From: Nitrospiraceae bacterium | GTDB lineage: Bacteria; Nitrospirota; Thermodesulfovibrionia; UBA6902 | Assembly: GCA_020356065.1 (NCBI GenBank) | Contig: CP070632.1 | Coordinates: 1,444,209-1,487,843, forward strand | DNA: 43,635 bases | Reading direction: 5' to 3' | In this document: one piece after another, positions 19,775 to 43,635 of the stretch | Layout: every line of letters begins with the position of its first letter | Numbering within the stretch: the first letter of the stretch is position 1 | The notes under the pieces: generated by a model | What the model was told of the DNA's origin: nothing | What the model saw: the letters and a program-made list of their open reading frames with translations, nothing else | Database searches by the model: none | Made by a program: the position numbers and the translations under genes

Positions 19775-19964
19775 CTCAATTTCTATAAGATCTCCACCAT
19801 AACTGGAATTCTTTTAAGCATTTGTTTTAATGTGAAGAATCCTGTTTGCAGATTTTAGAAAAAAATAAAGATTACTTGATTTTTTTTTGCAGTTAAACAG
19901 CCAGGCAGGATATTCTTGTCCTCGTAATGAAGATAAAATTAATATCTTCATTTCTTTTAAGGTA

Positions 19965-19994: not shown

Positions 19995-20006
19995 CAGCTA
20001 ATTATC

Positions 20007-23219: not shown

Positions 23220-26906
<3,687 letters not shown>

Positions 26907-26933
26907 TGCAGCGGATCTCCGGGATTAATTGAT

Positions 26934-27254
26934 ATGAGAAATATAAGAAGACAGCAGGTGGACCAGAATAGAAAGAGAAGAAAGGTTGTGTTTCTGACTT
27001 TTGGAATACTGTTTTCAATTTATCTGACATTCACACTGGTTTTTGGAGATAACGGTCTGATCAGTTATTTAAAATTGAAGTCGACTAAAAACAGCCTGCA
27101 GGCCGAGACAATAGTGGTGAAAGATCGTAACAATGATATCAGGAATCAGATTGAAGCCATAGAAAAAGAACCGGAAGTCGTTGAAGAGCTTGCAAGAGAA
27201 TACGGGCTGACCAAGAAGGGCGAACTTATTTTCAAGTTCGACAGTCAGGAGTAA
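26934..27254 (+). CDS. ftsB: FtsB/DivIC-family septum formation protein
   Basis: A 106-residue bitopic inner-membrane protein. It has a short basic cytoplasmic tail (MRNIRRQQVDQNRKRRK), one transmembrane helix (about 18-37, VVFLTFGILFSIYLTFTLVF) and a periplasmic coiled coil (about 48-80). A DivIC-type end follows (VEELAREYGLTKKGELIFKF). It is expected to link FtsQ and FtsL in the divisome. It lies 27 bp after eno, the arrangement also known in gamma-proteobacteria, which supports the call. Confidence 0.88.
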   Translation: MRNIRRQQVDQNRKRRKVVFLTFGILFSIYLTFTLVFGDNGLISYLKLKSTKNSLQAETIVVKDRNNDIRNQIEAIEKEPEVVEELAREYGLTKKGELIFKFDSQE

Positions 27255-27297
27255 AGAAGAGCTTAGAGCAATAACCAGATTGCCGCGGAGGAGAAAA

Positions 27298-27666
27298 GTG
27301 TACGATTTAATGATAGAAACGCAGTTTTCATCTGCGCATCAGCTGAGAGGATATAAGGGAAAGTGTGAAGCGCTGCATGGGCATAACTGGCGGGTGCAGG
27401 TAACGGTATCCTCTGAAAAGCTGGATGATACAGGCATGGTGATAGACTTTCATGATCTGAAGAAAATGGCAGCAGAAATAATATCATCCCTGGACCATTC
27501 TTTTTTAAATGACGTCTTCCCGTTTACCGAGATCAATCCGTCATCTGAAAATATTGCAAAGTGGATTTTTGATTCCTTTAAAAAGAAGCTGGACAACGAC
27601 CAGTGTAATATTTCCTCCGTAACTGTGTGGGAAAACGAGACAGCCTCAGCAACATATTATGAGTAG
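27298..27666 (+). CDS. queD: 6-carboxytetrahydropterin synthase (QueD/PTPS family)
   Basis: A 122-residue protein that makes 6-carboxy-5,6,7,8-tetrahydropterin from dihydroneopterin triphosphate for queuosine synthesis. Zinc ligands and the catalytic Cys are in FSSAHQL and KCEALHGHNW. GMVIDFHDLK, LDHSFLND and VTVWENETASATYYE complete the family pattern. GTG 27298 is chosen because GGAGGA lies 5 nt upstream; the in-frame TTG at 27280 would place that ribosome site inside the gene. It is the last gene of the plus-strand operon. Confidence 0.94.
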   Translation: MYDLMIETQFSSAHQLRGYKGKCEALHGHNWRVQVTVSSEKLDDTGMVIDFHDLKKMAAEIISSLDHSFLNDVFPFTEINPSSENIAKWIFDSFKKKLDNDQCNISSVTVWENETASATYYE

Positions 27667-27713: not shown

Positions 27714-28598
27714 TTACTGAAAACCGATAACAGCAGTAAAGGGAAAGAGTATTTCTCCGCCGTGATTATCATTTACTGCTATCTCAACATCATGATAGCC
27801 TTTATCCTCAGTAGAAAATTCCCAGCTGATGGCCCCACTTACCGGATCTATGTTCATCCCATCAGGTCCCTTCCTCAGTTGAAAGCTGAGTGTGTCTCCG
27901 TCAGGATCAGTAACATCGGGCCTGTATGTGTATGTCTGTCCACTGAGGATCGGATCGCTGTCCGCAACACGGGGAAGGGCATTGAGGACTTTCCTGTTAA
28001 GCGTTACGCTCTTTCCGGTATCTTCCCCGTCGCTGGGAAAGACTTCAACTGACACCATGTCCCCTCTTTTAAGGTCAGTGTCAAGAAAACTGTCGTCACT
28101 TTCATAATTTCCATTCAGGAACCACTTGTATTGAAAGAAAACAGAATCATTATCAAGGTCACGTGCGTTTGCCTGAACCTGAAATGTAGATTCAGAAGTT
28201 GCAAATTCAGGTATAAGCTTTGCCCTGTCTATGACAGGAGGGCTGTTCCTGATCGTTAATTCATTGGATAGGTACTCATTTTTTCCGCTTATGACCAGTG
28301 CCTGTACTAAATCTCCCTTGCTCAGATCCTTTGGTACGAATCTGAGTCCTTCAGCAGATTCTTCTCTTATACCATTTACCATCCACTGGATTGTCACTGT
28401 ACCTGTTAAGATGTCATTTTTTTCCAGAGATATTATTGATGCCTTTGTAGCGTTCTCCGGACCTATGGAGACATGTGTCGTTTTACTTTCTGTCCCTGCA
28501 CCAGTGGCAGGCTTATGAACATTGCCGGAGTTACTGCTGCAGCTGATAATAAATACTAATATCAGGAGCAGCAGTGCTGTATGTTTCAATTTCATCAT
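27714..28598 (-). CDS. Lipoprotein with putative Ig (He_PIG-like) domains, end of pilus module A
   Basis: A 294-residue lipoprotein with signal MMKLKHTALLLLILVFIISC and lipidation at Cys20. A spacer rich in Ser, Gly and Thr follows, then two or three Ig-like repeats. The last has PRVADSDPILSGQTYTYRPD, then DPVSGAISWEFSTEDKGYHD and VNDNHGG, the putative-Ig pattern. It is clearly homologous to the C-terminal half of the 36178-37197 protein. Its ATG overlaps the pilY1 stop by 4 bp (ATGA), so it is translationally coupled to the pilus tip gene. Probably anchored in the outer membrane facing the periplasm; its role in pilus assembly is inference. Confidence 0.85.
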   Translation of the reverse strand: MMKLKHTALLLLILVFIISCSSNSGNVHKPATGAGTESKTTHVSIGPENATKASIISLEKNDILTGTVTIQWMVNGIREESAEGLRFVPKDLSKGDLVQALVISGKNEYLSNELTIRNSPPVIDRAKLIPEFATSESTFQVQANARDLDNDSVFFQYKWFLNGNYESDDSFLDTDLKRGDMVSVEVFPSDGEDTGKSVTLNRKVLNALPRVADSDPILSGQTYTYRPDVTDPDGDTLSFQLRKGPDGMNIDPVSGAISWEFSTEDKGYHDVEIAVNDNHGGEILFPFTAVIGFQ

Positions 28599-31500
28599 GG
28601 AATCGGCTTGCGTGACCAGCCCATCACCTTGCTTCTGCGCGGAACAGGTGTAACATTCTCGATCTCAATAATTGTTCCGTTCGACTGTTTAATGATCCCT
28701 TTGGTTTTGCCGTCTTTTGTTTCCTGCCCACTTACGGTTGAGGCCATTCCCGCTCCTATGTTCTTGACCCTTGCGACGGGGTCTGTTGTGCCCTGGTCAC
28801 TGAATACATACTGTTTGTATGCAGTGCCTGTCTCGTAGTAGACCGCATAGACATTGCTCTCTCCGTCTTTGGTGCATTCATCGGTTCCCGGAATAAAGGT
28901 GGTCCATGTGACAAGACCGCCAAGAATAAATGGCTTTGTAAACATTTTTTCACCTTTATATTTAAGCGCCGTGCCTGTATAATCGCTGCTCTCACCGCCT
29001 GTGCCGCGTTCACCAAAGAACAGTGCCCATCCATCACAGTTATCCGACCCACTCAGGAGATTGGACCAGTTGGAAATCACTCCGCCGCATGCACCGGATA
29101 CACCTGTTACGGTGCCGTCTGTTTTTACCTTTGCTTTGGAAATGTCAAGCAGGTTTGTGAAAGCTACCGGATTGTCTCCTTTCCAGCCTTTGTCCTTGAT
29201 TCCATAAAATGCTCCGGTATCATCAGGGTTTCTGTCATCCAGGCCTTGGAACTTTCCTGATCCGAAATACACCCACAGATTTGCACTGCTGTCCATTGCA
29301 GCGGCCGGTGCTGCAGTTATCCTTCGGGCAGCATCTTTTGCACCCCCGATTGAGCTGATACCTGCAAGGGTTGAGAGCTCCCACTGAGAGGGGTCATTCT
29401 GTACTCCCCTGAGAGTGGTGAGCCGGCGTAAAAAGGCAGTATCATTCAGCGGATCGTTTTCCCCTATATACATGACATCCACATCGTAATTCAGATCTAC
29501 ATCAATGGAGATGGAATCAGCAAGATATGTGTTTATTCCGCCTGTTGAGATTTTCCAAAAGTTCGAGTTTTCAGTCCATGTGTTAATAACACCATCAGTG
29601 CCGCCGGAGATCTTCAGTACGAATATATTACCGTTCTGATACTGTGTCAAATTTGATTCCTCATCAAATTCCGTAGCGCCTGAGCCGAATATTACATACC
29701 AGGATGATCCTATCCTGGCCACAGATGGATACGACATGGTTAAGCCCAGATCAGGGTTTGAGAATGTCCAGAGAAGCCTTGGTTTTATTGGATCTGTTAT
29801 ATCGAGAGCGAAATATTCAGGGGAACTGCTGTAATCGGTAGTTCCATGCGTCCAGTCCATGGTATCTCCGCCCAGACGCATTCCACCGATGAGTATGGTA
29901 CCCCATCCGCCTACATTTGTTGCTCCATCGTCATCGAAGATCTTGACGTCACTTACCTTTGGTTTCAGATCAACATAATAGACATGCGTGTACTCAGGGT
30001 CTGTCAGCCATTGAAGGTGAGGCAGTAGTCCTCTTGGTATAAACGCCCAGAGCTCCTCACCCAGAGTATGCGTCCCGTTGAAGCACTCTCCGCTGCCGTT
30101 TACGTCAGAGTAAAACCTTCTATTCAGAGCGTCGTAGCAGCCTGCGTTAAAGGCGTGAAGCATCCCGTCATTTGCTCCCACATATGAAACCTGGAGTCTT
30201 TTTTTATGGGCGAGCCAGAACTTTGCATACGAAGCGTCACCATAAAGCAGGTCAAAATTTTCCGAGGGAGGTCCGATAAGCGTAGGAGCTGAATGCACGA
30301 TGTCTCCCAGTTTCCAGATATTGGAACTTGCACCAATGGTAATGTCTCTTTTTCGATACCCGTTTGGATGGGTCGCATCAATGTCGTCTACCGGGTGCGT
30401 GAAGTCTTTGCCGCGTACCCAGTTTATGACCTTTGCGGCAACGGCGTCATCATCTTCCCTGAGATACGGTTTTAAAGCGACGTTATTGGTTGCCACGAAT
30501 TCTTCTCTGCTGTATCCATCTATCGAAGTAAATATTTCTCTTGTATCAGGGTCTCTCTGCCAGAGCAGCTTGCCGCCTGCCCATACGGGATTTATCTCCT
30601 CATATGTATATATCTGGTTTGAGCAGGAATAATTTCCTTCCGTATCCGTATAACTGCATTTAAAAATCTTTGTCCCGTCCTCGATGGTATACTCCATCTT
30701 AAGTATGGAATCCGACGTGTCAAGTGTATCGTCATTGTCCGAGTCTTCTCTTAAATTGCCGTATGAATCAATGAAAAGCGATTGCATGTACCCCAACCAG
30801 CTTCTTGTTTCAAGATTTTCCCATTTCTTGGGGTAGTACTGTGCATGGTACACTGCTCCTTCACCTGTGGTTGAAGATGAAAGCACGCTTGCAGCTGAAC
30901 CGGATGCGACATCAGCGCTTATTTCAAGCAAAGCACTTCTCAGTGTTTTACCTAATTCTTCGGGATCTTTTGGATTATAGAGGGTTGTTCCGCCGTTCCT
31001 GGCGGTGTTGTCCATTAATGTTATCCCGTCGCACTCATCCGGCGTAACCGTGTCTTCTCCGATATATACCACATACGAGGTGATATGCTGCGCAACCTCG
31101 TCGTCAGAAAGGTCTATGTCTGAAGGGTTGAATATATTCCTGTTATTGGCATAGTAACTCAGGTCATCAAGGTAGGTGCTCCCTGAATAATCTCCGCATG
31201 TACCAGTGTCACCGGCATCATTGTCATCAAACAGATGGGAGCTCTGCGTGACCTTGCCTGTAATTTTTGGATTAATATCAGCTGTTGATGCTCCATCAGA
31301 TATGATGAGTATATTGTTTTTCTGGCATCTGAATTGAATGGGATTTTTATTTCCTGCAAAGTCATCGGAATTTAGCGGATCCTGAATGGCATCGGCTGTG
31401 GGGGTAAACTGAACAGGGTCTAAATCCGGGTTGTTGTTTGCGTCTGATACATAATATGCGATTATATTGTAAAATGCCTCAGAAAATGGTGTCCATGTCG

Positions 31501-33019
31501 CAGTTTTGATGTTATTGATGGCCTGGGCGGTATCAGCATCTCCAATATAGCTCACTACTTTACTGCCGTCCTTGTCCGTCGCTGATGGGTTATCAGGATC
31601 CTGACAGTCATTAACAATATTGGTGTTGGTCAAATTTTCTGTACCTGCTCCGCAGTAATTGAACCTCATAACACCAAAGCGTATGCTGTTTTGAAACGCA
31701 TCGATCAATCCGGTTGGTGCCGATGAAATTTCAATCTTTACCGGGAACTGACCAACAGGGTAACCGGCCTGTGCAAAAAGGCCGGAGTCCATGAGAAATG
31801 CCGGTAAATACAATTGATCTGTTGTATCAGCTGTTGATAGTGTAGGATCAATTATTTGGGGGATTTTCAGAGTATCACAGAATGCATTCATCTGGTCTTC
31901 TTCGCAGGAATTGTTTTTTGAAAATTCGTTTACCTTAGGATTTGCTTCCAACCAACACTCCCCGAAAAAACCGGAAAGGCCCGTTGCCTCACATGTTTCG
32001 CCCATCGGACAGTCTGCATCCTCATCACAGATATACGCAGGATTTGTATTTGTACATGCCTTGCGCCGGTCAGAACAGATATATGATGGTTCGTACGACT
32101 GTACATCACCTGGCGAACTTGTTTCATACACCTTTTCACAGGAATTCATCGTCGCGTTTATTGTACCTGAAGATATGGCATCGCCTTTTGCCTTTTTATA
32201 GCATCCATGAATGGTATGGTTAAACGTCGAACGCTCTCCCTTTATTTTTTCTTTAGTGCTATCATCCAACTTTCCCATGGCAAGGCAGTCATCAACTGCA
32301 CCTTTGAATTGTCCCTGACTGTCATCAATCAACGTAGCTGCCAACTGACAGGGGGTGGGATCAAAACTGCCGTCAAAGATCTCGATCACTGTATTTCCTC
32401 CGGATGAGACCTGGAGCAGGTCGTTCGGATCATTGGCATAGCCCCGGACTCCAAACGTGATATTCAGGCCGGGCACTGCCTTTATATGTCTCCTGCCGGT
32501 ACACCCTCTGGATTCTGCCTCTATATAACCGTTTACTGCATCGTATTTTCCGCCTGTCAGGATCTTCTTCAGTACATCCAGTCGTGAGGCTGAGAGCCAG
32601 TTGAGAAACCTTCCGCTTGCTTCAAATGTCGTGACCAGGCCTGCCCCGATATCAACACAGAGATACGCTGTGGTGTGAACACATGTGGAAGAAATCGCTG
32701 CACCCTTTTTGCCGAATGTGCCGGTTCCGTTCTTCCACTCATAGACCACATCCTCTTCAAAATATCCCGTATACGTAGCCGTGTTGTCATAGCTGCTGTC
32801 ATAACAGTGCGGATCAGTTGCAGGATTGTATAAATACTGAAGATCAACCATACTTCCCGAATTGTCGATCATGAGCATGAGATTGGCAGGGGAATCAGTC
32901 AGAACAGACGGCGGATAGGCGGTATAATCAGACATGATCTGGGCTTCGGACAGCGCAGATACACTTATTAATAATGCCGTCAGACAGATAATATGTTTAT
33001 ATAATTTTACTGTTCTCAT
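28595..33019 (-). CDS. pilY1: PilY1-like type IV pilus tip/adhesin protein (module A)
   Basis: A 1474-residue secreted protein. ATG 33019 (MRTVKLYKH) is used because AGGGAG lies 6 nt upstream; longer starts lack a site. After the signal peptide there is a vWA-like region with a MIDAS pattern (LMLMIDNSGSMVDL, and later ILIISDGASTADIN), interrupted by a Cys-rich insert (CDEDADCPMGETC). The C-terminal half is the PilY1 beta-propeller: VSYVGANDGMLHAFNAGC, WAFIPRGLLPHLQWL, and the calcium loop DVDLNYDVD (about 29476-29505). PilY1 sits at the pilus tip with minor pilins and controls pilus extension and surface sensing. It follows pilX and overlaps the Ig lipoprotein gene by 4 bp. Confidence 0.93.
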   Translation of the reverse strand: MRTVKLYKHIICLTALLISVSALSEAQIMSDYTAYPPSVLTDSPANLMLMIDNSGSMVDLQYLYNPATDPHCYDSSYDNTATYTGYFEEDVVYEWKNGTGTFGKKGAAISSTCVHTTAYLCVDIGAGLVTTFEASGRFLNWLSASRLDVLKKILTGGKYDAVNGYIEAESRGCTGRRHIKAVPGLNITFGVRGYANDPNDLLQVSSGGNTVIEIFDGSFDPTPCQLAATLIDDSQGQFKGAVDDCLAMGKLDDSTKEKIKGERSTFNHTIHGCYKKAKGDAISSGTINATMNSCEKVYETSSPGDVQSYEPSYICSDRRKACTNTNPAYICDEDADCPMGETCEATGLSGFFGECWLEANPKVNEFSKNNSCEEDQMNAFCDTLKIPQIIDPTLSTADTTDQLYLPAFLMDSGLFAQAGYPVGQFPVKIEISSAPTGLIDAFQNSIRFGVMRFNYCGAGTENLTNTNIVNDCQDPDNPSATDKDGSKVVSYIGDADTAQAINNIKTATWTPFSEAFYNIIAYYVSDANNNPDLDPVQFTPTADAIQDPLNSDDFAGNKNPIQFRCQKNNILIISDGASTADINPKITGKVTQSSHLFDDNDAGDTGTCGDYSGSTYLDDLSYYANNRNIFNPSDIDLSDDEVAQHITSYVVYIGEDTVTPDECDGITLMDNTARNGGTTLYNPKDPEELGKTLRSALLEISADVASGSAASVLSSSTTGEGAVYHAQYYPKKWENLETRSWLGYMQSLFIDSYGNLREDSDNDDTLDTSDSILKMEYTIEDGTKIFKCSYTDTEGNYSCSNQIYTYEEINPVWAGGKLLWQRDPDTREIFTSIDGYSREEFVATNNVALKPYLREDDDAVAAKVINWVRGKDFTHPVDDIDATHPNGYRKRDITIGASSNIWKLGDIVHSAPTLIGPPSENFDLLYGDASYAKFWLAHKKRLQVSYVGANDGMLHAFNAGCYDALNRRFYSDVNGSGECFNGTHTLGEELWAFIPRGLLPHLQWLTDPEYTHVYYVDLKPKVSDVKIFDDDGATNVGGWGTILIGGMRLGGDTMDWTHGTTDYSSSPEYFALDITDPIKPRLLWTFSNPDLGLTMSYPSVARIGSSWYVIFGSGATEFDEESNLTQYQNGNIFVLKISGGTDGVINTWTENSNFWKISTGGINTYLADSISIDVDLNYDVDVMYIGENDPLNDTAFLRRLTTLRGVQNDPSQWELSTLAGISSIGGAKDAARRITAAPAAAMDSSANLWVYFGSGKFQGLDDRNPDDTGAFYGIKDKGWKGDNPVAFTNLLDISKAKVKTDGTVTGVSGACGGVISNWSNLLSGSDNCDGWALFFGERGTGGESSDYTGTALKYKGEKMFTKPFILGGLVTWTTFIPGTDECTKDGESNVYAVYYETGTAYKQYVFSDQGTTDPVARVKNIGAGMASTVSGQETKDGKTKGIIKQSNGTIIEIENVTPVPRRSKVMGWSRKPIP

Positions 33020-33111
33020 AATTGACTCCCTTTGTTTAATTTTCAGGAACCTGTTGCATTTCTTATGGCTGTGATCTATATCTTTACAAATGTTTGTCAT
33101 TTCCTGTTAAC

Positions 33112-33648
33112 TTATTTCGGTATATACTGATAAATTGATCCGACCTCAGCTGAAGAACTGACCATTCCTGAGCTGGATGCATTTATCCTGTAGAAGACCT
33201 TGAATCCGCTTGCCCCGCCTTTTCCAAGCCCCTCATATCCTGAGGCAAACTCGATTGAATCATTTCCCCATGTGTTGTACATCTTGTCAATATCCACATT
33301 TACGTTGTTTGCTGCATCATCCACGGCATACGATACATCCGGATTAGCATCTTCATTGCTGTCACAGTCAAAGAATACTGTCCTGAGCTCAGTTTCAAGA
33401 TTATTATCACCGATGATATCGGTAAATCCTGTCTGGTCGCCCTCCCGTACAAGATGTTCAATTATTTTTGTACTGATCTCAAGTCCTGCGTCAGCCTTGA
33501 TGACATTTTGTTCTCTCAGTCGCATATTTCCCGAGAGCTTATTCTCGATCGTGCTGGTATTGACCGCTGAAAGACCGATGACCGTGAGAACAAGCAGTAA
33601 CAGCAGAGACGTAATAAGAATGTACCCGTTTTCATTGTGCTTTAACAT
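33112..33648 (-). CDS. pilX: PilX-like minor pilin (module A)
   Basis: A 178-residue protein. A short leader (MLKHNENG) is followed by a hydrophobic N-terminal helix YILITSLLLLLVLTVIGLSA, then the PilX signature VNTSTIENKLSGNMRLREQN and ADAGLE. It lacks the usual Glu at mature position 5 (Thr instead), as in tip pseudopilins of the GspK/PilX type. AGGAAAG about 6 nt before ATG 33648 supports the start. A 92-bp gap separates it from the pilY1 start. Confidence 0.9.
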   Translation of the reverse strand: MLKHNENGYILITSLLLLLVLTVIGLSAVNTSTIENKLSGNMRLREQNVIKADAGLEISTKIIEHLVREGDQTGFTDIIGDNNLETELRTVFFDCDSNEDANPDVSYAVDDAANNVNVDIDKMYNTWGNDSIEFASGYEGLGKGGASGFKVFYRINASSSGMVSSSAEVGSIYQYIPK

Positions 33649-33658
33649 GTATCTTTCC

Positions 33659-34720
33659 TCACTGGTTCCTCATGGTGGTCACCGTCCGCCACCATCTCCG
33701 TCTGAAATTGTCGTTCGTATCGCTGAGATTGCGGTTTTCTATCTGGTCCGGCGGATTACCCATTCCCTTGTAATTAAGGTCCGGCCTGTCGGACCGTGCA
33801 AGGACATTGATACGGAATGCCATGATCGTTGCCGGGTCTGCGACATCCACACCGTTGAGAAAATCATTGTCATCGAAGTTTCCGTCAGCATTCTGGTCAT
33901 CCATTACCCCGTCTTCATTGACATCCACAGCATATGCAAACTGGAGATCTTCGATATTTTCTGCAATGGCTTCATCATCAGACGTGGCTGCCGGTACACA
34001 TGCAGCAGCATTTGCATTTCTGCGAATCCTGTGAAGGATGGCATCACTGTCGACACAGAACGTGGTGTCCTCAACCAGGTACACAGGCCTGCCCGCAGTA
34101 CAGTTACCGCCTCCGGCAGCTGTACATGAACCGCCTCCGGTCGCGTTTTGCAGGGGGAAATTCTGCGATAATGGCCTGTCAAGGGTAATATTGTCAGGAT
34201 CGCAGATTCCACTTGCCCCGATAGTACAGTTAGATACCTGGACCGTTTCGACTCCGTCTATGCTCAGGTATCTTTTATCGGTCAGGTTAGGACCGTCGGT
34301 GCCGGTATATTTTATCCTGACATTTGTGGTACCTGCCTCGACTGAAGCCGGGCACATTACTGCTCCGGAACCTGTGGGCCAGAGGGTACCGATCATCCGA
34401 AACCCTCCGACAACGGTAATCGCATCAGGTCCGAGAGTATCGTCCACAGGTGTGATTATCGAGGTGAAGGTATTTACAGGCTCCTCATTTAATTCAACTG
34501 AAAGGCCAAAGCCTGCGCTTCTGACCTCACCGGCCAGCAGGTCATGAGCTATTTTTGACTGGGTGTTTACCTCGGATACGCTTTCCTGAACAACATGGGA
34601 GCGTTTCTGCACTATGTATGTACCTGTTGCAGCGATGATCAGCAGGAGCCCGATTACAATGGCAATCATTAATTCAACAATCGAATATCCTTGTTCAGTA
34701 TTATGGTGTAACATTTTCAT
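33659..34720 (-). CDS. pilW: PilW-like minor pilin (module A)
   Basis: A 353-residue protein with a class III prepilin leader and helix: QG|YSIVELMIAIVIGLLLI (Glu at +5), then the PilW block SKIAHDLLAGEVRSAGFGL. The globular part has a Cys/Gly-rich loop (GGGSCTAAGGGNCTAGR) and an EF-hand-like acidic loop (DVNEDGVMDDQNADGN), suggesting calcium binding. It starts inside the end of pilV (20-bp overlap); ATG 34720 and the ATG two codons later are both possible. It should be part of the priming complex at the pilus tip. Confidence 0.9.
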   Translation of the reverse strand: MKMLHHNTEQGYSIVELMIAIVIGLLLIIAATGTYIVQKRSHVVQESVSEVNTQSKIAHDLLAGEVRSAGFGLSVELNEEPVNTFTSIITPVDDTLGPDAITVVGGFRMIGTLWPTGSGAVMCPASVEAGTTNVRIKYTGTDGPNLTDKRYLSIDGVETVQVSNCTIGASGICDPDNITLDRPLSQNFPLQNATGGGSCTAAGGGNCTAGRPVYLVEDTTFCVDSDAILHRIRRNANAAACVPAATSDDEAIAENIEDLQFAYAVDVNEDGVMDDQNADGNFDDNDFLNGVDVADPATIMAFRINVLARSDRPDLNYKGMGNPPDQIENRNLSDTNDNFRRRWWRTVTTMRNQ

Positions 34721-35291
34721 CCCACCTTAACGTATTAAGTGTTACAGATCGATTTGTATTGTTTTTATCGGTCCAGCAGGTCCTTACCCTGATCGCAGAA
34801 GAGGCGGTGGCCAATGCTGCATCAGGATCGGTTAAACACGATGCTGCAAGGGCTGGATTACAGGTTCCATCATCTCCATCCAACTGTAAGGCAATACAGT
34901 TCGGGTGCACCCAATACGTTCTCGTGTAAATTATGCCACCAGAAAGGGACGTTTCAACTGCCGGTACCGGCTCGACATCCGAACCAGAGGCCAGGCTTGC
35001 GTAGGGAACTGCATTAAACTGTTCTATTAACTGCTGGCTTATGTTTGTGGCGACCCTCATATCTTTGCTCGATACATTTCCGCCGACCGCATAATATTGC
35101 ATCCCGAGGACTCCGAGCATTCCGGTCATCAAAACGATCAGTGCTATCATGATCTCGATCAATGTGAATCCCTTTTCCCGGGAACATGCAGATAATGATA
35201 ATGCGTAATTATTCCTTGCATAATGGATGAGGCATTCTTTTGCATTTATAAAATGCATCCCTGTCTGTTTCATTTTTTTTCTGATACTCAT
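34701..35291 (-). CDS. pilV: PilV-like minor pilin (module A)
   Basis: A 196-residue protein with prepilin motif KG|FTLIEIMIALIVLMTGMLG (Glu +5), followed by GMQYYAVGGNVSSKDMRVAT and ISQQLIEQFNAV, the PilV pattern. ATG 35291 overlaps the fimT stop in an ATGA junction, giving a leader of about 41 residues, which is long; a later internal start is possible but no better site is visible. The C-terminal region has four cysteines that could form disulphides. Confidence 0.87.
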   Translation of the reverse strand: MSIRKKMKQTGMHFINAKECLIHYARNNYALSLSACSREKGFTLIEIMIALIVLMTGMLGVLGMQYYAVGGNVSSKDMRVATNISQQLIEQFNAVPYASLASGSDVEPVPAVETSLSGGIIYTRTYWVHPNCIALQLDGDDGTCNPALAASCLTDPDAALATASSAIRVRTCWTDKNNTNRSVTLNTLRWDENVTP

Positions 35292-35977
35292 CTTAGTTCT
35301 GTCCATCCACAGCATTTTTTCGGAGTACCCGTACAGTCGTTGACCACATCCGGGGCAGGATTATCTTTATCGCCATCCCATTTCCAGAGGTCAACTTTTC
35401 CTGTCTGATAACTGATCCTGAGCATATAGGTAATCCCTCGATTAGTGTGTTTAATAAATGCTGAACCGGTAAATTCCACTGAGCCGTCAGGATTGAAAAC
35501 CTGCCTGACCGGGCCGGCCGTACTGCCGAATTCCACGGTTTTTCCGGTTATGTCTATGCATGCTGGGCAGTCTTTGGGCTCATCAGGTCCTGTACCGGTT
35601 TCCGTACCGAAAACAAGCTCATTTCCATAGTCTTTCAACCGGACTGTCCGAACGTTACCACTTTCAAACCCGTCAACAGCATCAGTAAGTTTATTGTTAC
35701 CATCACCGTCAAACCCGATGCTAAAGCTGTCGTCACCTGCTTCATTAAATGTGATAAAATAGGCCCTGTTTTCCTTAATTGCCATGGTTCTTGCAAGCCT
35801 CATCGTCTGCAGAAGATCATCAGCCGCACTTCTGACTCTGCTTTCACCGACAAACTTGCCATACTGGGGGATACCCATGGAGGCCAGAATGCTGATGATA
35901 ACAATCGTAATAAGCAGTTCAATCAGTGATACACCATTTTCATTCTTTATCATCTTCATGGTTGTCATTTTCTGCAT
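35288..35977 (-). CDS. fimT: FimT/GspH-like minor pilin (module A)
   Basis: About 229 residues. Prepilin motif NG|VSLIELLITIVIISILASM with Glu +5, then YGKFVGESRVRSAADDLLQT and ARTMAIKENRAYFITF, the FimT/GspH signature. FDGDGNNKLTDAVDG is an EF-hand-like loop. Several Met codons (35977, 35968, 35959, 35953) precede the motif and no clear ribosome site separates them; 35977 is the first ATG. It is the first gene of module A, after a 200-bp gap that may hold a promoter. Confidence 0.88.
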   Translation of the reverse strand: MQKMTTMKMIKNENGVSLIELLITIVIISILASMGIPQYGKFVGESRVRSAADDLLQTMRLARTMAIKENRAYFITFNEAGDDSFSIGFDGDGNNKLTDAVDGFESGNVRTVRLKDYGNELVFGTETGTGPDEPKDCPACIDITGKTVEFGSTAGPVRQVFNPDGSVEFTGSAFIKHTNRGITYMLRISYQTGKVDLWKWDGDKDNPAPDVVNDCTGTPKKCCGWTELR

Positions 35978-36177
35978 TTTAATATGCAAATTCTATGCTT
36001 AAGTCTAAGTAATGAAATATCAATGCGTTAGGGAATTATTTGTACGAGAAGAGTGAAATTTTACACAAATAGTATGTAATGAATTTCATAGTGGATTAAT
36101 CTGCAATCAGCCTATTTCCTGTCAATAATGTAGATGAAGAGGAAGCAGAAAACTTTTGAAATGAAAAAGAAAGCTTC

Positions 36178-37197
36178 TTATGGCGTCTCTGACGGTGACT
36201 CTGCATCCTTAATGGAGAGCGTAAGTTGCTGCCTTGCCTTTCCCCCATGTCCATCGTCAATATCTATCGTGATCTCAGCCGCACCTTTATATTTCGGGGG
36301 TACGGTCCAGGTGATCTGACCGGCAGAGTCAATACTCATTCCCTCTGGAGCAGAGGTAAGAGCATATGTAAGGGTATCGTTATCATTGTCGGATGCTTCA
36401 AGCTGATACGTATAAAGACTTCCGTCCAATGAAGATATTCCCCCGGTGATCCGGGGAGGCGTGTTATGAATTTCTTTTGTTAACACCAAAGGAAATCCAT
36501 AATCGAGATCATCATATGGTGATATTTTTACACTTATCGAATCTCCTCTTTTAAGAGGTTGGGTCATTTTTGGCTCTTCGCCTGCGTACTTCCCGTTTAC
36601 TGACCATTCGTAATCAAAATAAATGTTATCTTCTTCAAGATCTGCAGCACTTGCCTTCACCTCCATAGCATTCCCTGATTCAAGAATAACCGCAACAATA
36701 TCCGCGCTATTGATTCTCGGCGGAGAATTTATATTTCTCAGTTTCTTTTTTGAATCCGAACGTACAATGTTTGATGAATCTTTGTGGGCAACGTCGCTCT
36801 TACTGCTGGCAATTTCAGATTTTATATTTTTCGAGGTATGGTTGCCTTTTCCGGATTCCTTATCGTTTGCCAAGAAAAATGAAAATACAATAATGACTGA
36901 AATTAATAATGCACTTAGGGTAATCTTATGCGGGATCTGCAGCTGTCCTCCGGTATTTTTATTATCTGCGTATGTACCCGAACCATGATCTGCAGAAGAA
37001 TGATCAAGATCATGTAATATCTGGTCAAGCCGGTGTTTCAACGAATGACTTATAGATGCTTTGCTTTGAGACGTTCGCTCATCTAAATCGACAAGACCAC
37101 CGAAAATATCATCGATGTCTTCGTGAGCAGCGATTTTCGATTCATTCTTTATGTCATTATGAGATGTATACCCGTCTGAATGGCTGTGATTACTCAT
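36178..37197 (-). CDS. Bitopic inner-membrane protein with putative Ig domains, end of pilus module B
   Basis: A 339-residue protein. A cytoplasmic acidic/polar tail of about 92 residues (including EDIDDIFGGLVDLDERTSQS) is followed by one transmembrane helix (about 93-109, LSALLISVIIVFSFFLA) and a periplasmic region. That region has a Ser/Lys-rich linker and two or three Ig-like repeats (LDGSLYTYQLEASDNDNDTL, DSAGQITWTVPPKYKGAAE, DDGHGGKARQQL). It is homologous to the 27714-28598 lipoprotein, but with a membrane anchor in place of the lipid. ATG 37197 has AGGA 8 nt upstream; a TTG at 37215 is possible. It follows pilX of module B closely and could couple the pilus tip set to the inner membrane (inference). 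Confidence 0.82.
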   Translation of the reverse strand: MSNHSHSDGYTSHNDIKNESKIAAHEDIDDIFGGLVDLDERTSQSKASISHSLKHRLDQILHDLDHSSADHGSGTYADNKNTGGQLQIPHKITLSALLISVIIVFSFFLANDKESGKGNHTSKNIKSEIASSKSDVAHKDSSNIVRSDSKKKLRNINSPPRINSADIVAVILESGNAMEVKASAADLEEDNIYFDYEWSVNGKYAGEEPKMTQPLKRGDSISVKISPYDDLDYGFPLVLTKEIHNTPPRITGGISSLDGSLYTYQLEASDNDNDTLTYALTSAPEGMSIDSAGQITWTVPPKYKGAAEITIDIDDGHGGKARQQLTLSIKDAESPSETP

Positions 37198-37211
37198 GTC
37201 AGTGTCCTGTT

Positions 37212-37814
37212 TCAATAAAAATACAGTATGGAGGATATCGCTCTTTCATTGAGATTTGGCACACTCGACTGGACCTCTATTGAATAAATGTACGGTAATT
37301 TTTTTACACTTACCTCACCTGAATCGGACTGAACAACCGCATTTTTTAATAACCCTGTGTCAGCCGCAGTATTTCCTGCTACAGTATCAACAACTTTTGA
37401 ATAAACGTTATAGGTTCCCATATCAAATGCCATGTCATACGTGCTGCTGTCCAGTCTGTCGATCGACAATGATGAATTGCACACTGCATTCCAGTCATCA
37501 GTGTTATTAAGGAGCTTATCCGTGATACAGTTGAATCCCCCAACATTAGATGAGGGGGTAGTGAGATTGACAAGGCCGAGGTTTAACGGATAATTAAAAT
37601 TGGTCTGATCCCCTCTGGAACTGACAAGCTGGAACATCACTTCTGAACCTCCGGTTGCAGCCTGGTTGGCAGTTTCATACCTTTTATGAGAACCGGACAT
37701 TCTGGTTGATTCTGTTACAAAGTACAGGATGCCGCTTGACATGGCAAGGCATATCACGGAAAGAATAAGTACCATGATAAGGGCCATACCTTCGTTGTTG
37801 TGTAACATTTTCAT
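37212..37814 (-). CDS. pilX: PilX-like minor pilin (module B)
   Basis: A 200-residue protein. Leader MKMLHNNEG, helix MALIMVLILSVICLAMSSGI with no Glu +5 (Met instead), then ESTRMSGSHKRYETANQAAT, the PilX pattern. It matches the module A pilX gene in position and fold but is diverged in sequence. Four bases separate it from pilW. Confidence 0.87.
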   Translation of the reverse strand: MKMLHNNEGMALIMVLILSVICLAMSSGILYFVTESTRMSGSHKRYETANQAATGGSEVMFQLVSSRGDQTNFNYPLNLGLVNLTTPSSNVGGFNCITDKLLNNTDDWNAVCNSSLSIDRLDSSTYDMAFDMGTYNVYSKVVDTVAGNTAADTGLLKNAVVQSDSGEVSVKKLPYIYSIEVQSSVPNLNERAISSILYFY

Positions 37815-37818
37815 TGTA

Positions 37819-38952
37819 TTATAAATTGTCCAGACTCACCGACATCTGATAACGTTTCCACCTGTAATATTTATATTCAGGACTTCCAATAATGGCAGAA
37901 AGATTGGTTGTAGTCAATGAATCTCTCGTATTATCCATGGAGAAATCATACGTCATGTCTTTCTGACCTTCCTGCATAACTATTGTTACCATCGCCTCTT
38001 TTACCTGGTCTCTGATATCTGTGGCACTCATGAGGGTAATATCATCAGATATAAGATCAATTGTACCGTCATCATTCGTATCCATTGAGTATGTAATCTG
38101 AAAATCAGCAACGCAGTCAAATAGCGGCAGCTCATCGTCAACGCCGTCACCATTGAGGTCATAGTCACCATCAAGGTGATCTACGACTGTCTTTACGAAC
38201 ACCCCGGTATTGGGAGCACAATGCGAAGGGGTATTTAACATCGAAATAAAATAATCGGCCCGGTTAAAGGGCATTCGGGGAGATGTGCTGGGATCCAGTC
38301 CATATGCGAGATATGTGGTTGTCGGCTCTGCTGGTGAAAATGCAGCAGGAACCACTGCATCAGCACCGCTATAGGTAATGAGAGTCGAAAAAACAGTTCC
38401 ATTGACAATTAATGTCCGTTCATTGTCTTCTGTAGTTCCGGGAGAGACTACAATTACCCTGTCATTGGTCACAAAGTTCTCATTTGCCAGATCCCATAAC
38501 TTCAGGATGCCGTCAGATCCCAAATGTGACCATTTATGTGCTGTATCGGTTATGGCAACATTAGTAGACTTGATGATGAGCGCATCTGATCCGTTTGGCC
38601 CAATACCGTTTCCACTCAGAATAGCCCGGGGTGCATTGGCGGGTGCATCATTGTAATCACTGGCAGGTGCAGCGCTTGCCTCTATATAATTGGTCAGGGT
38701 GTTCCAGTTGACAGCCACTCCTACATTATCTGATGCATTCCAGGGAAGTCCCAGTCCAGCATGTTCTATGTCACGTCTTAATATATCGAAACCTATAACA
38801 CCCTCGATCTGGGTCTCTGAAATTTTACCCTGCTGCTTGAACTGGCCAAGAATGTTTACAAAAATATTCGATGCAGCAGTAATGACAAAAAGAACCAGTC
38901 CCATGGCAACTATTAATTCGATGAGACTGTAGCCATTCTCTTTATGAATCAT
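37819..38952 (-). CDS. pilW: PilW-like minor pilin (module B)
   Basis: A 377-residue protein. MIHKENG|YSLIELIVAMGLVLFVI has Glu +5, then FDILRRDIEHAGLGLPW, the PilW block. Acidic EF-hand-like loops occur at DGDYDLNGDGVDDELP and DTNDDGTIDL. GAGGAG lies 3-4 nt before ATG 38952, and the ATG overlaps the pilV stop (ATGA). Confidence 0.9.
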   Translation of the reverse strand: MIHKENGYSLIELIVAMGLVLFVITAASNIFVNILGQFKQQGKISETQIEGVIGFDILRRDIEHAGLGLPWNASDNVGVAVNWNTLTNYIEASAAPASDYNDAPANAPRAILSGNGIGPNGSDALIIKSTNVAITDTAHKWSHLGSDGILKLWDLANENFVTNDRVIVVSPGTTEDNERTLIVNGTVFSTLITYSGADAVVPAAFSPAEPTTTYLAYGLDPSTSPRMPFNRADYFISMLNTPSHCAPNTGVFVKTVVDHLDGDYDLNGDGVDDELPLFDCVADFQITYSMDTNDDGTIDLISDDITLMSATDIRDQVKEAMVTIVMQEGQKDMTYDFSMDNTRDSLTTTNLSAIIGSPEYKYYRWKRYQMSVSLDNL

Positions 38953-39365
38953 AATCTCCTCTGAATGGTAGCGACAGCATGTGTATAATTCTCCCCTTTA
39001 TACATCCATGCTATTGTTACATTGATTTGCCTGGCTAAAGGATTTACCGCGGGTAGATCTTCTACTGCTACCGTTGAAGTGAAATCCACATTGAAATTTC
39101 TGACTGTCCTCTGAAGGTCAGGATTATCCGCACTTGTTTCAACGCCTGCTTCTGCCGGAAGGTTGTCAAATGTGACATTCCTGAGCTCTATTAATTTCAT
39201 ATCTGCCATCTGTATAGCTTCATCTCGAATAATATTCTGCATATTCGTTGTACTTGAAAGTAACGATGTCATTAGTAATGAGAGGAACATGATTAAAATG
39301 ATTGACATGGCAATCATCAGTTCTACGAGAGTAAATCCCTTTTTATTTAATAATGCATTCATCAT
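38949..39365 (-). CDS. pilV: PilV-like minor pilin (module B)
   Basis: A 138-residue protein. MMNALLNKKG|FTLVELMIAMSIILIMF has Glu +5, followed by SSTTNMQNIIRDEAIQMADM. It is shorter than the module A PilV. The start is ATG 39365 or the adjacent ATG 39362, with AGGG 4-7 nt upstream, inside the end of fimT (23-bp overlap). Longer upstream frames are only a shadow of fimT. Confidence 0.86.
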   Translation of the reverse strand: MMNALLNKKGFTLVELMIAMSIILIMFLSLLMTSLLSSTTNMQNIIRDEAIQMADMKLIELRNVTFDNLPAEAGVETSADNPDLQRTVRNFNVDFTSTVAVEDLPAVNPLARQINVTIAWMYKGENYTHAVATIQRRL

Positions 39366-39921
39366 CTGCCCTGTTTGAAGTATCGTTCGTCTCAAGTTTC
39401 CCAAGATTGATTCTTGTTGCTCTGATAGAAATACAGTCATAATCAGGAATAGCGTCCTGCTCACCATCACTGTCCCTGTCGAGATAGGTTGAAATAACCG
39501 CCTGCACTGAAGAGATCCCTCGTGTGTTGAACGAGAAGTCAACCGGCATGGCGATACTGGAATTGTTCCAGTCGAAATCATATTCAACATCTTTGGGAAA
39601 TGACGGGAGTTCGGTGTCTGCTGACGCGCCGCTACCAGTCTGAAGGACGCCATCACCATCAGGAACTTTCACGGCCCCATTACTGTCATCTTCGTAAAAC
39701 GTATACGATGTTGCATCCTGCAGTCTGACAAAGTGTGTTCTTTTATTTTCAATCGCGCTCAGTCTGGCATCCATCAGTTCAACATACAGATCTTTGATCT
39801 GGCTTTCAATTTTATATTTCCCCATCCATCCCCGAAAACTGAATGCAGTAGAGATCGCAATAATATTTATTATGGTGATGACGATCAGCAGTTCAACTAA
39901 TGATATTCCTTTATCTTTCAT
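39343..39921 (-). CDS. fimT: FimT/GspH-like minor pilin (module B)
   Basis: A 192-residue protein. MKDKG|ISLVELLIVITIINIIA has Glu +5, then the GspH/FimT region KDLYVELMDARLSAIENKRT. Acidic loops VPDGDG and LDRDSDGEQDAIPDYD suggest calcium sites. The ATG overlaps the pilY1 stop of module B by 4 bp (ATGA), so pilY1 comes first in this module, unlike module A. Confidence 0.88.
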   Translation of the reverse strand: MKDKGISLVELLIVITIINIIAISTAFSFRGWMGKYKIESQIKDLYVELMDARLSAIENKRTHFVRLQDATSYTFYEDDSNGAVKVPDGDGVLQTGSGASADTELPSFPKDVEYDFDWNNSSIAMPVDFSFNTRGISSVQAVISTYLDRDSDGEQDAIPDYDCISIRATRINLGKLETNDTSNRADDECIIK

Positions 39922-42900
39922 CGTTCTCTCATATGCACGACTTTTTTCCTCGGCGCAGGCATTGTGAGCAGTGTCAATCCCTGATATTTCGGAGGTGCAC
40001 CATCCATTTCACTCGTTCTTCGGTTGTTTTTTTCCGTAAATGCAGAGCCTAGATCCTTTTCTTCAATACTGCCGGTTGAGAGCTGGACATACACCTTGCC
40101 TCTCAATGCATACTGTGCCGATCCTCCTGTGCTGTAATCCACAGCCCAGACATGTGTTTTACCCCCAAACCCGCATATATCTGCATTCGGTTTAAACGTT
40201 GTAAAATACACCGCTCCTGCCGTACTGGATACCGTATCAGTAATTACCCGTTCAGCTTTTTCCGATGCTCCGGACAGGTCAAGCTGAATTTTCCATCCTT
40301 TAAATGAAGGATCATGTGCGTCAGCCGGTATATTTGAGATATCGGTGACGTCAGTCAGAGCGGCTTCCGCAATGGTAGTTGCACAGGCTGGGTCATACCC
40401 GTTTGTTGAGTAACATGGCTCTTTCATCCCATATATAAGCCTTCCCGTATCAGAATCATCTATCCCTGCAATCAGCTGATAAAAGTATCGTCCTGTTCCA
40501 AAATATAACCACATGTTATGCTCAACCTGATTGACAAGCCGGGCGACTCCGGAAGTGACCGGTCCGATATCATCGATTACCTTGCTCCATGTCCAGTTGT
40601 TCGGATTTGCATTTTCCTTTGTTACCAGTCTGAGAACACCTCCTTTTGTCCATGTATTCCCGGACCCGGATGCACTGTATGTGTACCCCATATGAAGAAC
40701 ATCGTCCTGGTAGTCGATGTCAGGATCAAATGTGGAATTCATGATATTGCTGGCAAATGCGTATGCAATGCCCGTATCGATTGTTCTCATGACATTCCCG
40801 GTTTTGAGGTCAAGAATAAAAATACGCAGGTTCTGATCGGAACGGCCCATGAATTGATCTTCCGTAATGTCGATAGGACCTGTCGGGCCTGAAGCAAAAA
40901 CCACGAACCAGTTTCCATTTGTCATTTTATCGGGATCTCCGCTCATATTTGTGGAACTGATTCTCACGACTGCCGGTCCGGTGGTTGCGAATCCCATTTG
41001 ATCATTTGAAAATTCCCATAGTAATGTCGGATTATTCTGATCAGTGATATCCAGGGCAAAATATGATGAATATCCGGATCCTGAAGCAGGTGTCTTCACA
41101 CAGTCAGTGCAGCCGCTTGAAATATCCCTGCACGATCCTCCCTGTCCCATGCCGCCGATAAGTACTGTTCTCCATGAAGATCCATCGGACGGTCTCACAG
41201 TTGTGCTGCCTCCGTTAATGCTTGCATCAAAAATGTATGAAGGCGCATCTATGGTGAATATGTGACAGTAGTCCGGATCGGCAAGATATTTAAGATAGGG
41301 AAGGACATTCTTTGGAATATATGACCACTGTTCCTTACCAAGATCTGCTCCTGATAATACGGCTTTTCTGAACTGTTCATGTTTCATCTCCAGAGATCCA
41401 AGCTTGAATGCATGGAGCATTCCGTCGTTAGATCCCGTAAATACCATTCCTCTGCTCTGATAATTTGCTGACTTCAAATAAGCCTTGTATGACACGTCAC
41501 CATACACATCATAATATTTATTCAGGGGGATGGAAGATGATATCTTTGGGGTTGAACTTATGATGTCCCCAAGCTTCCACACCTTTGCAGCTTCACTCAT
41601 GCCGTTCACTACGTCATTCGTATCGCCGTCATCATTAAGATCTATGGCAACCGTTCGTGAGCGATATCTTATTGTTCCGACACCATCTGTATAATCAGCC
41701 AGGTCATTACCCTTTACATAATTAATGATGTTTGACGCGACCGCATCGTTTTCCGCATCACTTCTTCCTGCATCATCTGTGTTTAACAATGGTCTGAGAG
41801 TTGAAACGTTCAGTGCATCAAAAGCATTTGTCCCGCTTGTGAGAGAGGCCCCGGAGTTCAGTGGTGTATAAATATTTCGAGGTTCTGTCGTGAGGTCCCT
41901 GTTCCAGAGTAAAATTCCTGCTTCCCACAGGTTGTTCAGCTTTTCAAATTCCAGGTCAGGAAGTATCTGTGTCAGGGTGCCGTCACCTGCAGGATCTGTA
42001 AAGCGCGATACCATTGTTTTGTTCTGCGTTGAATCAAAGTAGAATTTAACCACATGGTCGTTACTGAGATTGAGTTCTCTGTCGCCGTCTGTATCTTCTC
42101 TGATTGACGTGCCGCCGAACATGGGATTAATGTAAAACCAGAGGTTCTGCAGCGTGCTGGTCCAGGCTATTTCCGCGTTTCCAAATTTTCGTCTTGGATA
42201 AAATACCACCTGTTCCATCAGGGCTCCGCTTCCTTCTGAAGATGCGATAACCGATGATGCGGTACCGGATGATGCCTGGCCTGAGACTGTCTGAAATACG
42301 TTTTCAAGTGAACTTCTCAGAGATTCCGGATCCTTGGGATCATAGAGTGAAGTACCGCCATTAACGGCAGTATCGTTCATCAATGTCTTTGGATGGCAAT
42401 CACCACTCAGCGTACTGGCATCAGTTCCCGTGTAAACAACATAGGTTGTTACGCTCTGGGCAGGAAAGTTATCACTGGGATCATTGTCCATGGGATCAAA
42501 TATATTTTTGTTTTTACCATAATAACTCAGGTCATCGAGATAGGAGCTTCCATCATAAGAGCCACATACACCGGAATCTGAGGTATCACCGTCATTATAC
42601 AGATCGTCGGCCTGTACGGCTTTACTCATCATGCTGATATGCTGGTCAGCTGTTGAGGCACCGTCTGAAATGATAAGGACACTGTTTGCCTGACATCGGT
42701 ATTCGACCGGATTTTTGTGGTCATCAAAATCATCTGAGTTCAGGGGCTCCTTAATGGCTTCAGACGAGGCCGTAAATTTTGCCGGATCAAGGAAAGGGTT
42801 GTCAGTGGCATCTTTTACAAAATAGGCCAGTGCGTTGTAATATCCTTCTGCAAACGGGGTCCAAGTATCAGCTCGTATACCATCGATGGAGTTGATTAAT

Positions 42901-43635
42901 CCACTACTGTGGTCACCCACGTTAGATTCACACGTCTCTCCAGCAGGACATTGGTCATCCCTGATACATGCAGTAGCCGAGCCGGAACAGGTGCCTTCCC
43001 CAATGTAATGAATTATTCTCCCGGCGTCTTTATCGCCTGATGCTGCCACACATGTTTCGCCTGAAGGGCAATCAATGTCTAATGAACAGACAATGTCTGA
43101 TGTACCGCTGCAGACCTTTGGACACTGCATCCCTCCTGATACGCATTCAGAATATGACCCGTCAAAATTAAAATCCATCGCACCAAAACGTATATAGTCA
43201 CTGTAATCGTTAATCAACCCTGCTGGTGGCGTCGCATTAGAATTATTGGCCTCAAAAGTGCCAATCGATGATCCCAGTTGTGCTTCTATCCCGATATCTG
43301 AGATTATTGCAGGGATATTTGCGGTTTCTGCCGTATCGTCGGGAGTATCCGTAGGATCAACAACGGGCGGGACCTTTATACTGTTGCAGTATTCCAGATA
43401 CTTTGAAAGGAAACAGTCCATGGGATCAGCATATTCTTTTGCCACCCAGTTTGTCGTGGCCCAGTCATCACTGGTTGTGGCACAATATCCTGTAAATTGG
43501 GAATTGCACATTAAAGCAGGATTTCCGGGACTGAGCGCTAAAGGTCCTCCTTCACATACGCCATCAGGACAAGCAGCATCTGACGTACATGTATTACCGT
43601 CGTTATCACCGCCATTGCATACCTTGTGGCCTGCG
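39918..43635 (-). CDS. pilY1: PilY1-like type IV pilus tip/adhesin protein (module B, N-terminus outside window)
   Basis: At least 1238 residues, open to the right window edge; by comparison with module A some 350 residues, including the signal peptide and MIDAS start, are missing. Visible parts: vWA-like segment (VLIISDGASTADQH), Cys-rich inserts (CTSDAACPDGVC near the edge, CSLDIDCPSGETC, CIRDDQCPAGETC), and the PilY1 propeller with MVFTGSNDGMLHAFKLGS and WSYIPKNVLPYLKYL. The equivalent of the PilY1 calcium loop is DPDIDYQDD (about 40700-40727). Sequence is well diverged from module A, so the duplication is old or the modules have separate origins. Confidence 0.92.
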   Translation of the reverse strand, partial: AGHKVCNGGDNDGNTCTSDAACPDGVCEGGPLALSPGNPALMCNSQFTGYCATTSDDWATTNWVAKEYADPMDCFLSKYLEYCNSIKVPPVVDPTDTPDDTAETANIPAIISDIGIEAQLGSSIGTFEANNSNATPPAGLINDYSDYIRFGAMDFNFDGSYSECVSGGMQCPKVCSGTSDIVCSLDIDCPSGETCVAASGDKDAGRIIHYIGEGTCSGSATACIRDDQCPAGETCESNVGDHSSGLINSIDGIRADTWTPFAEGYYNALAYFVKDATDNPFLDPAKFTASSEAIKEPLNSDDFDDHKNPVEYRCQANSVLIISDGASTADQHISMMSKAVQADDLYNDGDTSDSGVCGSYDGSSYLDDLSYYGKNKNIFDPMDNDPSDNFPAQSVTTYVVYTGTDASTLSGDCHPKTLMNDTAVNGGTSLYDPKDPESLRSSLENVFQTVSGQASSGTASSVIASSEGSGALMEQVVFYPRRKFGNAEIAWTSTLQNLWFYINPMFGGTSIREDTDGDRELNLSNDHVVKFYFDSTQNKTMVSRFTDPAGDGTLTQILPDLEFEKLNNLWEAGILLWNRDLTTEPRNIYTPLNSGASLTSGTNAFDALNVSTLRPLLNTDDAGRSDAENDAVASNIINYVKGNDLADYTDGVGTIRYRSRTVAIDLNDDGDTNDVVNGMSEAAKVWKLGDIISSTPKISSSIPLNKYYDVYGDVSYKAYLKSANYQSRGMVFTGSNDGMLHAFKLGSLEMKHEQFRKAVLSGADLGKEQWSYIPKNVLPYLKYLADPDYCHIFTIDAPSYIFDASINGGSTTVRPSDGSSWRTVLIGGMGQGGSCRDISSGCTDCVKTPASGSGYSSYFALDITDQNNPTLLWEFSNDQMGFATTGPAVVRISSTNMSGDPDKMTNGNWFVVFASGPTGPIDITEDQFMGRSDQNLRIFILDLKTGNVMRTIDTGIAYAFASNIMNSTFDPDIDYQDDVLHMGYTYSASGSGNTWTKGGVLRLVTKENANPNNWTWSKVIDDIGPVTSGVARLVNQVEHNMWLYFGTGRYFYQLIAGIDDSDTGRLIYGMKEPCYSTNGYDPACATTIAEAALTDVTDISNIPADAHDPSFKGWKIQLDLSGASEKAERVITDTVSSTAGAVYFTTFKPNADICGFGGKTHVWAVDYSTGGSAQYALRGKVYVQLSTGSIEEKDLGSAFTEKNNRRTSEMDGAPPKYQGLTLLTMPAPRKKVVHMRER

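Follow-up and report, generated by a model that had tools for sequence, protein, structure and literature searches.

Tandem minor-pilin/PilY1 modules of two gene-order lineages at a candidate pilus-tip cassette locus in a Nitrospirota genome

Anatomy of the locus

The window (the whole stretch of DNA that was analysed, 43,635 nucleotides; G000:C1:1444209–1487843) comes from a 3.17 Mb genome, G000, assembled as a single scaffold. Twelve minus-strand genes within it make up two minor-pilin/PilY1 modules, A and B, which lie in the same orientation with B upstream of A and transcribed first. Module A is ordered fimT-pilV-pilW-pilX-pilY1-Ig, and module B pilY1-fimT-pilV-pilW-pilX-Ig. Intergenic spacings inside each module range from −20 to +29 bases and are mostly ATGA-type overlaps or gaps of at most 11 bases, while a non-coding stretch of 200 bases separates the modules; a preceding sequence-only reading had described ATGA overlaps or few-base gaps throughout, which holds for most spacings but not for that full range or for the interval between B and A. 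The genes pyrG, eno, divIC and PTPS (23963–27666, plus strand) form the conserved downstream flank of the locus and are the same neighbours found in relatives. An exopolysaccharide-type locus (7741–21431; sugar transferase, flippase, Wzz/tyrosine kinase and glycosyltransferase) lies near the pilus-tip genes, and a sigma-54 activator is encoded at the upstream end of that locus.

Each module contains four minor pilins (FimT/U, PilV, PilW and PilX), recognised by N_methyl in three of the four and by PilX_N for PilX. In module A these are fimT/fimU (35288–35953, with its start at 35953 or 35962; GspH and N_methyl), pilV (34701–35258, start uncertain; N_methyl, and TIGR02523 PilV at E 2e-9, under its cut-off), pilW (33659–34720; PilW E 5.5e-12) and pilX (33112–33648; PilX_N E 2.7e-11), followed by a pilY1 tip adhesin gene of 1501 codons (28595–33100; PF05567 E 1.9e-13) and a gene for an Ig-domain lipoprotein (27714–28598; He_PIG and a lipobox). 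In module B, the C-terminal part of pilY1 (39918–43635, 1238 codons visible; PF05567 E 3.3e-9) is followed by fimT/fimU (39343–39921; N_methyl), pilV (38949–39362; N_methyl), pilW (37819–38952; N_methyl, with a weak PilW match at E 0.043), pilX (37212–37814; a weak PilX_N match at E 0.015) and a gene for an Ig-domain protein with an internal transmembrane helix (36178–37197; He_PIG E 3.4e-10). The A minor pilins score above Pfam cut-offs; B PilW and PilX, weak in Pfam, were recovered by HMMs built for this analysis (213 bits for PilW and 173 bits for PilX), and all four B pilins are also placed by trees, with the B-architecture proteins of the fimT tree all on one side of one branch. Four listed starts were too early: those of A fimT, A pilV, B pilV (corrected to 39362) and B Ig (37197). 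The listed A fimT start of 35989 is excluded because the promoter box described below occupies that position, and the true start lies at about 35953–35962.

Identification of the modules does not rest on chance matches, because the family scores are backed by conservation of both gene orders in many genomes. As the sequence-only reading had noticed, every family is present twice and the counterparts are strongly diverged: they are homologous yet mostly only 24–36% identical where alignable (PilY1, 32% over 1235 aa; fimT, 28%; pilW, 24–32%, local; Ig protein, 36% over 174 aa).

The calcium-binding loop in the C-terminal domain of P. aeruginosa PilY1 has the consensus DxDxNxDxD. The candidate loop, read by eye in the translations, is DVDLNYDVD in A PilY1 and, as a variant whose acidic positions are conserved in B, DPDIDYQDD in B PilY1. 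Both proteins have the C-terminal propeller, according to PF05567 and to profile matches with a relative of solved structure, 3hx6 (for the B profile, E 3e-35). Their N-terminal halves are 34% identical over 853 residues and so belong to one class, which weakens an earlier suggestion of two adhesive modes. A MIDAS-like DxSxS is conserved in the N-terminal alignment, as DNSGS in A and DNSAS in the B fragment; Pfam gave no vWA match in the N-terminal half and no informative family for the N-terminal fragment, and the structure model of this half is of low confidence (pLDDT 41).

An Ig protein closes both module types in this Thermodesulfovibrionia family and is usually a lipoprotein; in the B modules of G000 and of G011, a genome of another genus, the lipobox has been lost and a transmembrane anchor is present instead. 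The model of the A protein (pLDDT 88) comprises several beta-sandwich domains, and a fold search with it returned only generic Ig and cadherin repeats, with no functional clue. Our guess is that this protein is a periplasmic accessory to PilY1 or to the minor pilins.

Module A of the window is without the small PilY2-like gene found between pilX and pilY1 in most A-type relatives. The product of that gene is a small secreted protein of ∼100–130 aa (L070 13465–13818, L076 3304–3651, L082 5848–6246) for which a Pfam search gave no match to an informative family, and which is possibly a PilY2 analogue. Small unclassified genes of like size precede pilY1 in many B-type modules.

The sequence-only reading spoke of two complete modules; all twelve genes and both orders are indeed present, but B pilY1 is cut by the window edge and a gap of 100 N bases. 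Its frame runs off the window at 43634, the N bases come next in the genome, and past them an unrelated GGDEF-like gene (GGDEF by eye) begins. A search of G000 with a B PilY1 profile recovered a second piece at G000:C1:2522242–2522877, covering profile positions 2–176, the window piece starting at 191. The putative missing 5′ part (417 codons; G000:C1:2522108–2523362, or L130 8108–9362) likewise runs up to a gap of 100 N. Its identity to residues 63–447 of the G011 B PilY1 is 71%; the rest of the G011 protein matches the window part at ∼74%, and the stretch missing between the two pieces corresponds to ∼14 G011 residues. PmbA (identified by Pfam) lies directly before it, and the genes before PmbA are those that precede the locus in relatives. 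From this homology and synteny we infer that the L130 fragment is the 5′ part of B pilY1, and module B thus appears to run into a gap rather than to be broken outside the window. Because the missing part adjoins PmbA, the relatives' flank gene, the scaffold is judged to be misordered at the right edge of the window, and the true order of the locus is most likely PmbA, B, A, PTPS-DivIC-eno-pyrG. The GGDEF gene was rejected as a true neighbour, since PmbA and the missing PilY1 part lie elsewhere. The flanks of the gaps at G000:C1:1487844–1487943 and 2523362–2523461 belong together by PilY1 homology and synteny; with pieces of the scaffold misordered, neighbours across other G000 gaps are to be distrusted. 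Most of the genomes compared below are MAGs or drafts.

Gene-order lineages at the slot

In the regions fetched from relatives, the slot between PmbA and PTPS-DivIC-eno-pyrG is filled by modules of either A or B order. The type changes inside genera: in genus g7 the slot holds A in G009, G025 and G028 and B in G020 and G030, and in genus g14 it holds A in G023 and G027 and B in G016, G029 and G032, the remaining g14 genomes having A or B beside other neighbours. A PilY1 search of 37 genomes of the family found B only in 9, A only in 21, both in 2, and neither or a divergent protein in 5 (Fisher p 0.0006, ignoring relatedness). Farther afield, Geobacteraceae, Myxococcota MAGs and Aquificota have the B order, and Nitrospira, among others, the A order. 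Of the named B modules, the closest is L140, from a Thermodesulfovibrionia MAG.

The trees of fimT, pilV, pilW and pilX each need a single change between A and B (branch support 95, 86, 99 and 99, respectively); for the Ig tree the number is two. In the PilY1 tree, a branch with a support of 91, not starred, unites all true B modules. We therefore regard A and B as two old lineages of the type IVa minor-pilin/PilY1 module, marked by their gene orders. Extra pilY1 genes upstream in G007 and G019 were considered as B modules and rejected, being A-lineage copies in the PilY1 tree. Genera g5 and g2 have such extra A-lineage genes (L070/L071, L078, L065, L069, L073), upstream of the A module in g5; here only the adhesin has expanded. 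G008:C11 (L096, L237) carries, next to PTPS/eno/pyrG, a minor-pilin/PilY1 module that is highly divergent and has a dyad and a sigma-54 box of its own, possibly a third lineage in the same slot.

The sequence-only reading had left it to trees to tell old duplication from transfer: the trees make the A/B split old, and a transfer of B is suggested in addition by sequence identities. The B minor pilins of the window are 76–83% identical to those of G011, although between these two genomes the A pilins are only 50–58% identical and eno and pyrG 82–83%. The A pilins of the window are 57–63% identical to those of G001, another species of its own genus, which is no closer than to some other genera; eno and pyrG of that pair are 90 and 96% identical. 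B thus appears to have been gained by horizontal transfer, or to have been exchanged with another genus, although slow evolution of B in the two genera may instead account for these values.

The two halves of B PilY1 have different affinities. The N-terminal half of the G000 and G011 proteins is 57–64% identical to A-lineage PilY1s of G014, G011 and G009 (for the window protein, 62% to an A-lineage PilY1 over 845 aa), versus ∼32%, in short stretches only, to other B PilY1s. The C-terminal half of the window protein is 74% identical to that of G011 B, ∼51% to other B proteins and about one third to A. The switch in lineage is sharp, at residues 900–920 of the G011 protein, immediately ahead of SSGTASSV, the motif with which the C-terminal domain begins. 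B PilY1 is thus a chimera, with an A-lineage N-terminal half and a B-lineage, pilus-binding C-terminal half, and recombination where the two halves meet would account for it.

Predicted control elements

Upstream of A fimT we identified a sigma-54-like −24/−12 box, AAGCATAGAATTTGCAT (35984–36000, minus strand), and farther upstream a dyad, TATGAAATTCATTACATA (36073–36090, minus strand), with one mismatch to TRTGTAA-N4-TTACAYA. Both elements recur among relatives. A sigma-54 box was found within 450 bases upstream of 22 of 32 modules (23 of 32 within 700 bases), against 0.65 expected from Markov shuffles. In A modules it lies 30–47 bases before fimT; in B modules it lies ahead of pilY1, mostly 315–483 bases upstream and often with a small gene between. 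The dyad, usually 50 or 72 bases before the box, is present in all 23 regions with a box at no more than two mismatches (0.26 expected) and in 20 of them at no more than one (0.03 expected), figures that are optimistic, since one set of upstream regions served both to define the motif and to count it.

The independent test is a count over whole genomes: 37 genomes together contain 23 perfect dyads but a single match to the reversed pattern, and 17 of the 23 are at pilY1/minor-pilin genes. Seven loci were fetched for the other perfect dyads, and a sigma-54-like box is near all seven. In G000 the sole perfect dyad precedes B pilY1, and one of three one-mismatch dyads precedes A fimT; the one-mismatch total in this genome does not exceed the reversed-pattern control, so that position is the argument there. 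The same dyad and a sigma-54 box are also seen before another operon in genera g2 and g5 (L231–L234; G007:C32, G004:C108, G024:C214, G019:C354), which encodes a protein judged FecR-like by eye, a lipoprotein and a metallo-hydrolase-like protein of 486 aa, and which is possibly a second output of the tip regulator.

G000 has one copy of RpoN and, beside pilBTC, a PilR-like response regulator with a sigma-54 activation domain. A scan for sigma-70 promoters and terminators between the modules gave nothing over chance. With its box and upstream dyad, and with RpoN and an NtrC-type activator in the genome, each module is predicted to be a sigma-54-dependent unit. Because both have their own box and the same dyad, one shared activator is predicted rather than opposite control: an NtrC-family protein probably turns on both modules, and the common dyad suggests, short of proof, that A and B are co-activated. 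The opposite expression of A and B that the sequence-only reading had envisaged is thus not what these elements indicate, although an opposite-sense precedent in M. xanthus, where one NtrC-like protein regulates two modules and balances two PilY1s (PMC9109919), leaves room for it.

One pilus machine and two candidate tips

G000 carries one pilB-pilT-pilC-pilS-pilR cluster and one pilMNOPQ cluster (pilB, pilT, pilC, pilR, pilM and pilQ named by Pfam, PilO by search, and pilN, pilP and pilS by position). Given this single type IVa machine, the best reading is that the A and B proteins likely form two alternative priming or tip complexes on one pilus. This agrees with the earlier pairing of two tip gene sets with one machine, and has a precedent in M. 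xanthus, where multiple minor-pilin/PilY1 sets were shown experimentally to work with one T4aP machine and single clusters suffice for piliation (PMC7541494). We propose that the region is a pilus-tip cassette locus, in which most relatives hold A or B in one slot and in which, here, B sits upstream of A in the same orientation; each module would have its own sigma-54 promoter and respond, through the common dyad, to one NtrC-family activator. In each complex PilY1 would be outermost on the pilus, with its C-terminal half seated on its own minor pilins and its N-terminal half exposed, and the two tips might differ in binding. To the whole of this account (tip-cassette locus, two old lineages, transfer of B, chimera, shared control and alternative tips on one pilus, taken jointly) we assign a probability of roughly 0.78.

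The strongest rival holds that the tandem is redundant or transitional, with one module being replaced by the other and neither having a distinct role, and we consider it unlikely, though a serious contender. Carriage of both types in one genome is rare (2 of the 37 by PilY1 search, 3 counting G001), G003, of the same genus, has a PmbA fragment before A fimT without B, and the PilY1 N-terminal halves are of one class. Against replacement, no visible frame is interrupted, both modules have kept a box and dyad of their own, and two species of the genus appear to retain the B–A junction: upstream of A fimT, the G001 contig retains the final 56 codons of a B-type Ig gene (71% identity to the window B Ig over 56 aa) before it ends, although B PilY1 was not found in that genome. 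Co-occurrence of the types in relatives, whose absence would have told against the sequence-only reading, is real in G011 and G116 (in the latter on separate contigs) and probable in G001, but rare. In G090 (L191), a B module is followed in the same orientation by an A-order module of another lineage.

It is considerably less probable that one module serves another machine, either one of three further, T2SS-like GspE/GspF clusters in G000 or some other filament. The genome does have several GspE/PilB-like ATPases and three T2SS-like pseudopilin clusters, and B PilX and PilW match Pfam weakly, but pseudopilins, a GspK-like protein among them, are encoded separately within each of those clusters; moreover, A and B have control elements in common, and there are relatives with B alone at the slot, where, judged from the slot content, B is probably the only tip set.

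Had the modules arisen within this lineage by tandem duplication, with pilY1 then relocated in one of the copies, the shared gene families, orientation and adjacency would be explained; this is the history implied by the earlier description of a rearranged pair in which pilY1 "has moved". The trees reject any recent event of this kind and make the two orders old, separate lineages: the members of every gene family separate according to module architecture, in different genera and families alike; window B resembles the B module of another genus far more than it does window A; and both orders occur separately in other phyla, so we hold this explanation to be very improbable. Equally improbable is an assembly artefact, for although the scaffold has 100-N joins, at least one of them in the wrong order, the window contains no N, so none separates A from B, and the independent G001 contig shows the same B-Ig/A-fimT junction, alignable over 343 bases.

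A broader extension of the two-tip account, to which we would give slightly less than an even chance, is that the PmbA–PTPS slot is a dedicated tip-exchange site in this Nitrospirota class. Whole complexes, as well as the exposed half of PilY1, would be swapped there between species; a private sigma-54 activator would control every incoming cassette through the dyad and promoter that it brings; and tandem carriers would express both cassettes and could present two tips from one machine. The two-tip account itself already indicates that whole pilus tips are replaceable, that lineage can be read directly from gene order, and that recombination within PilY1 falls between its exposed and its pilus-binding half. 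The shared dyad and sigma-54 box amount to a concrete, testable regulon, and tandem carriers offer a way to ask directly whether the PilY1 of one lineage is accepted by the minor pilins of the other.

The closest parallel is provided by clusters 1–3 of M. xanthus, in which several sets of four minor pilins and PilY1 likewise accompany one T4aP machine (PMC7541494, PMC9109919, PMC13190605). There too the sets are strongly divergent (<36% identity) and the PilY1 N-terminus is variable, the NtrC-like HsfA binds two of the promoters, and one PilY1 class was judged to be horizontally acquired. Those clusters are separate, whereas here two gene-order lineages stand in tandem at one slot, each set has an Ig protein, one PilY1 is chimeric, and a dyad and sigma-54 box are common to both; HsfA acts oppositely on its two targets, whereas the shared element here suggests co-activation. 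In the P. aeruginosa operon pilV-pilW-pilX-pilY1-pilY2-pilE (order as given in PMC10374093; PDB 3hx6), the gene order of module A, the PilY1 C-terminal propeller and the minor pilin set are matched, and the B order differs; no Ig-domain protein is named there (PMC10374093), and PilY2 follows pilY1, whereas the small secreted gene of A-type relatives precedes it. The comC/fimU/pilV cassettes of Acinetobacter offer a case of a tip-gene block replaced by recombination between vertically inherited flanks, but with gene order conserved, whereas the cassettes exchanged here differ in order and can be carried together (PMC10374093).

In the literature searched we found essentially nothing on PilY1 in this bacterial group, and no description of such a combination, with gene-order lineages that are exchanged at one slot yet can also stand in tandem, a PilY1 chimera joined at the boundary of its halves, and a control element common to both modules; the words recombination, chimera and tandem are absent from a 2026 survey of myxobacterial PilY1s. 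Multiple tip sets are already known from Myxococcus, and recombination of tip-locus cassettes from Acinetobacter (PMC10374093); the distinct additions of the present locus are exchange of gene-order lineages at one slot, the PilY1 chimera and the shared control element.
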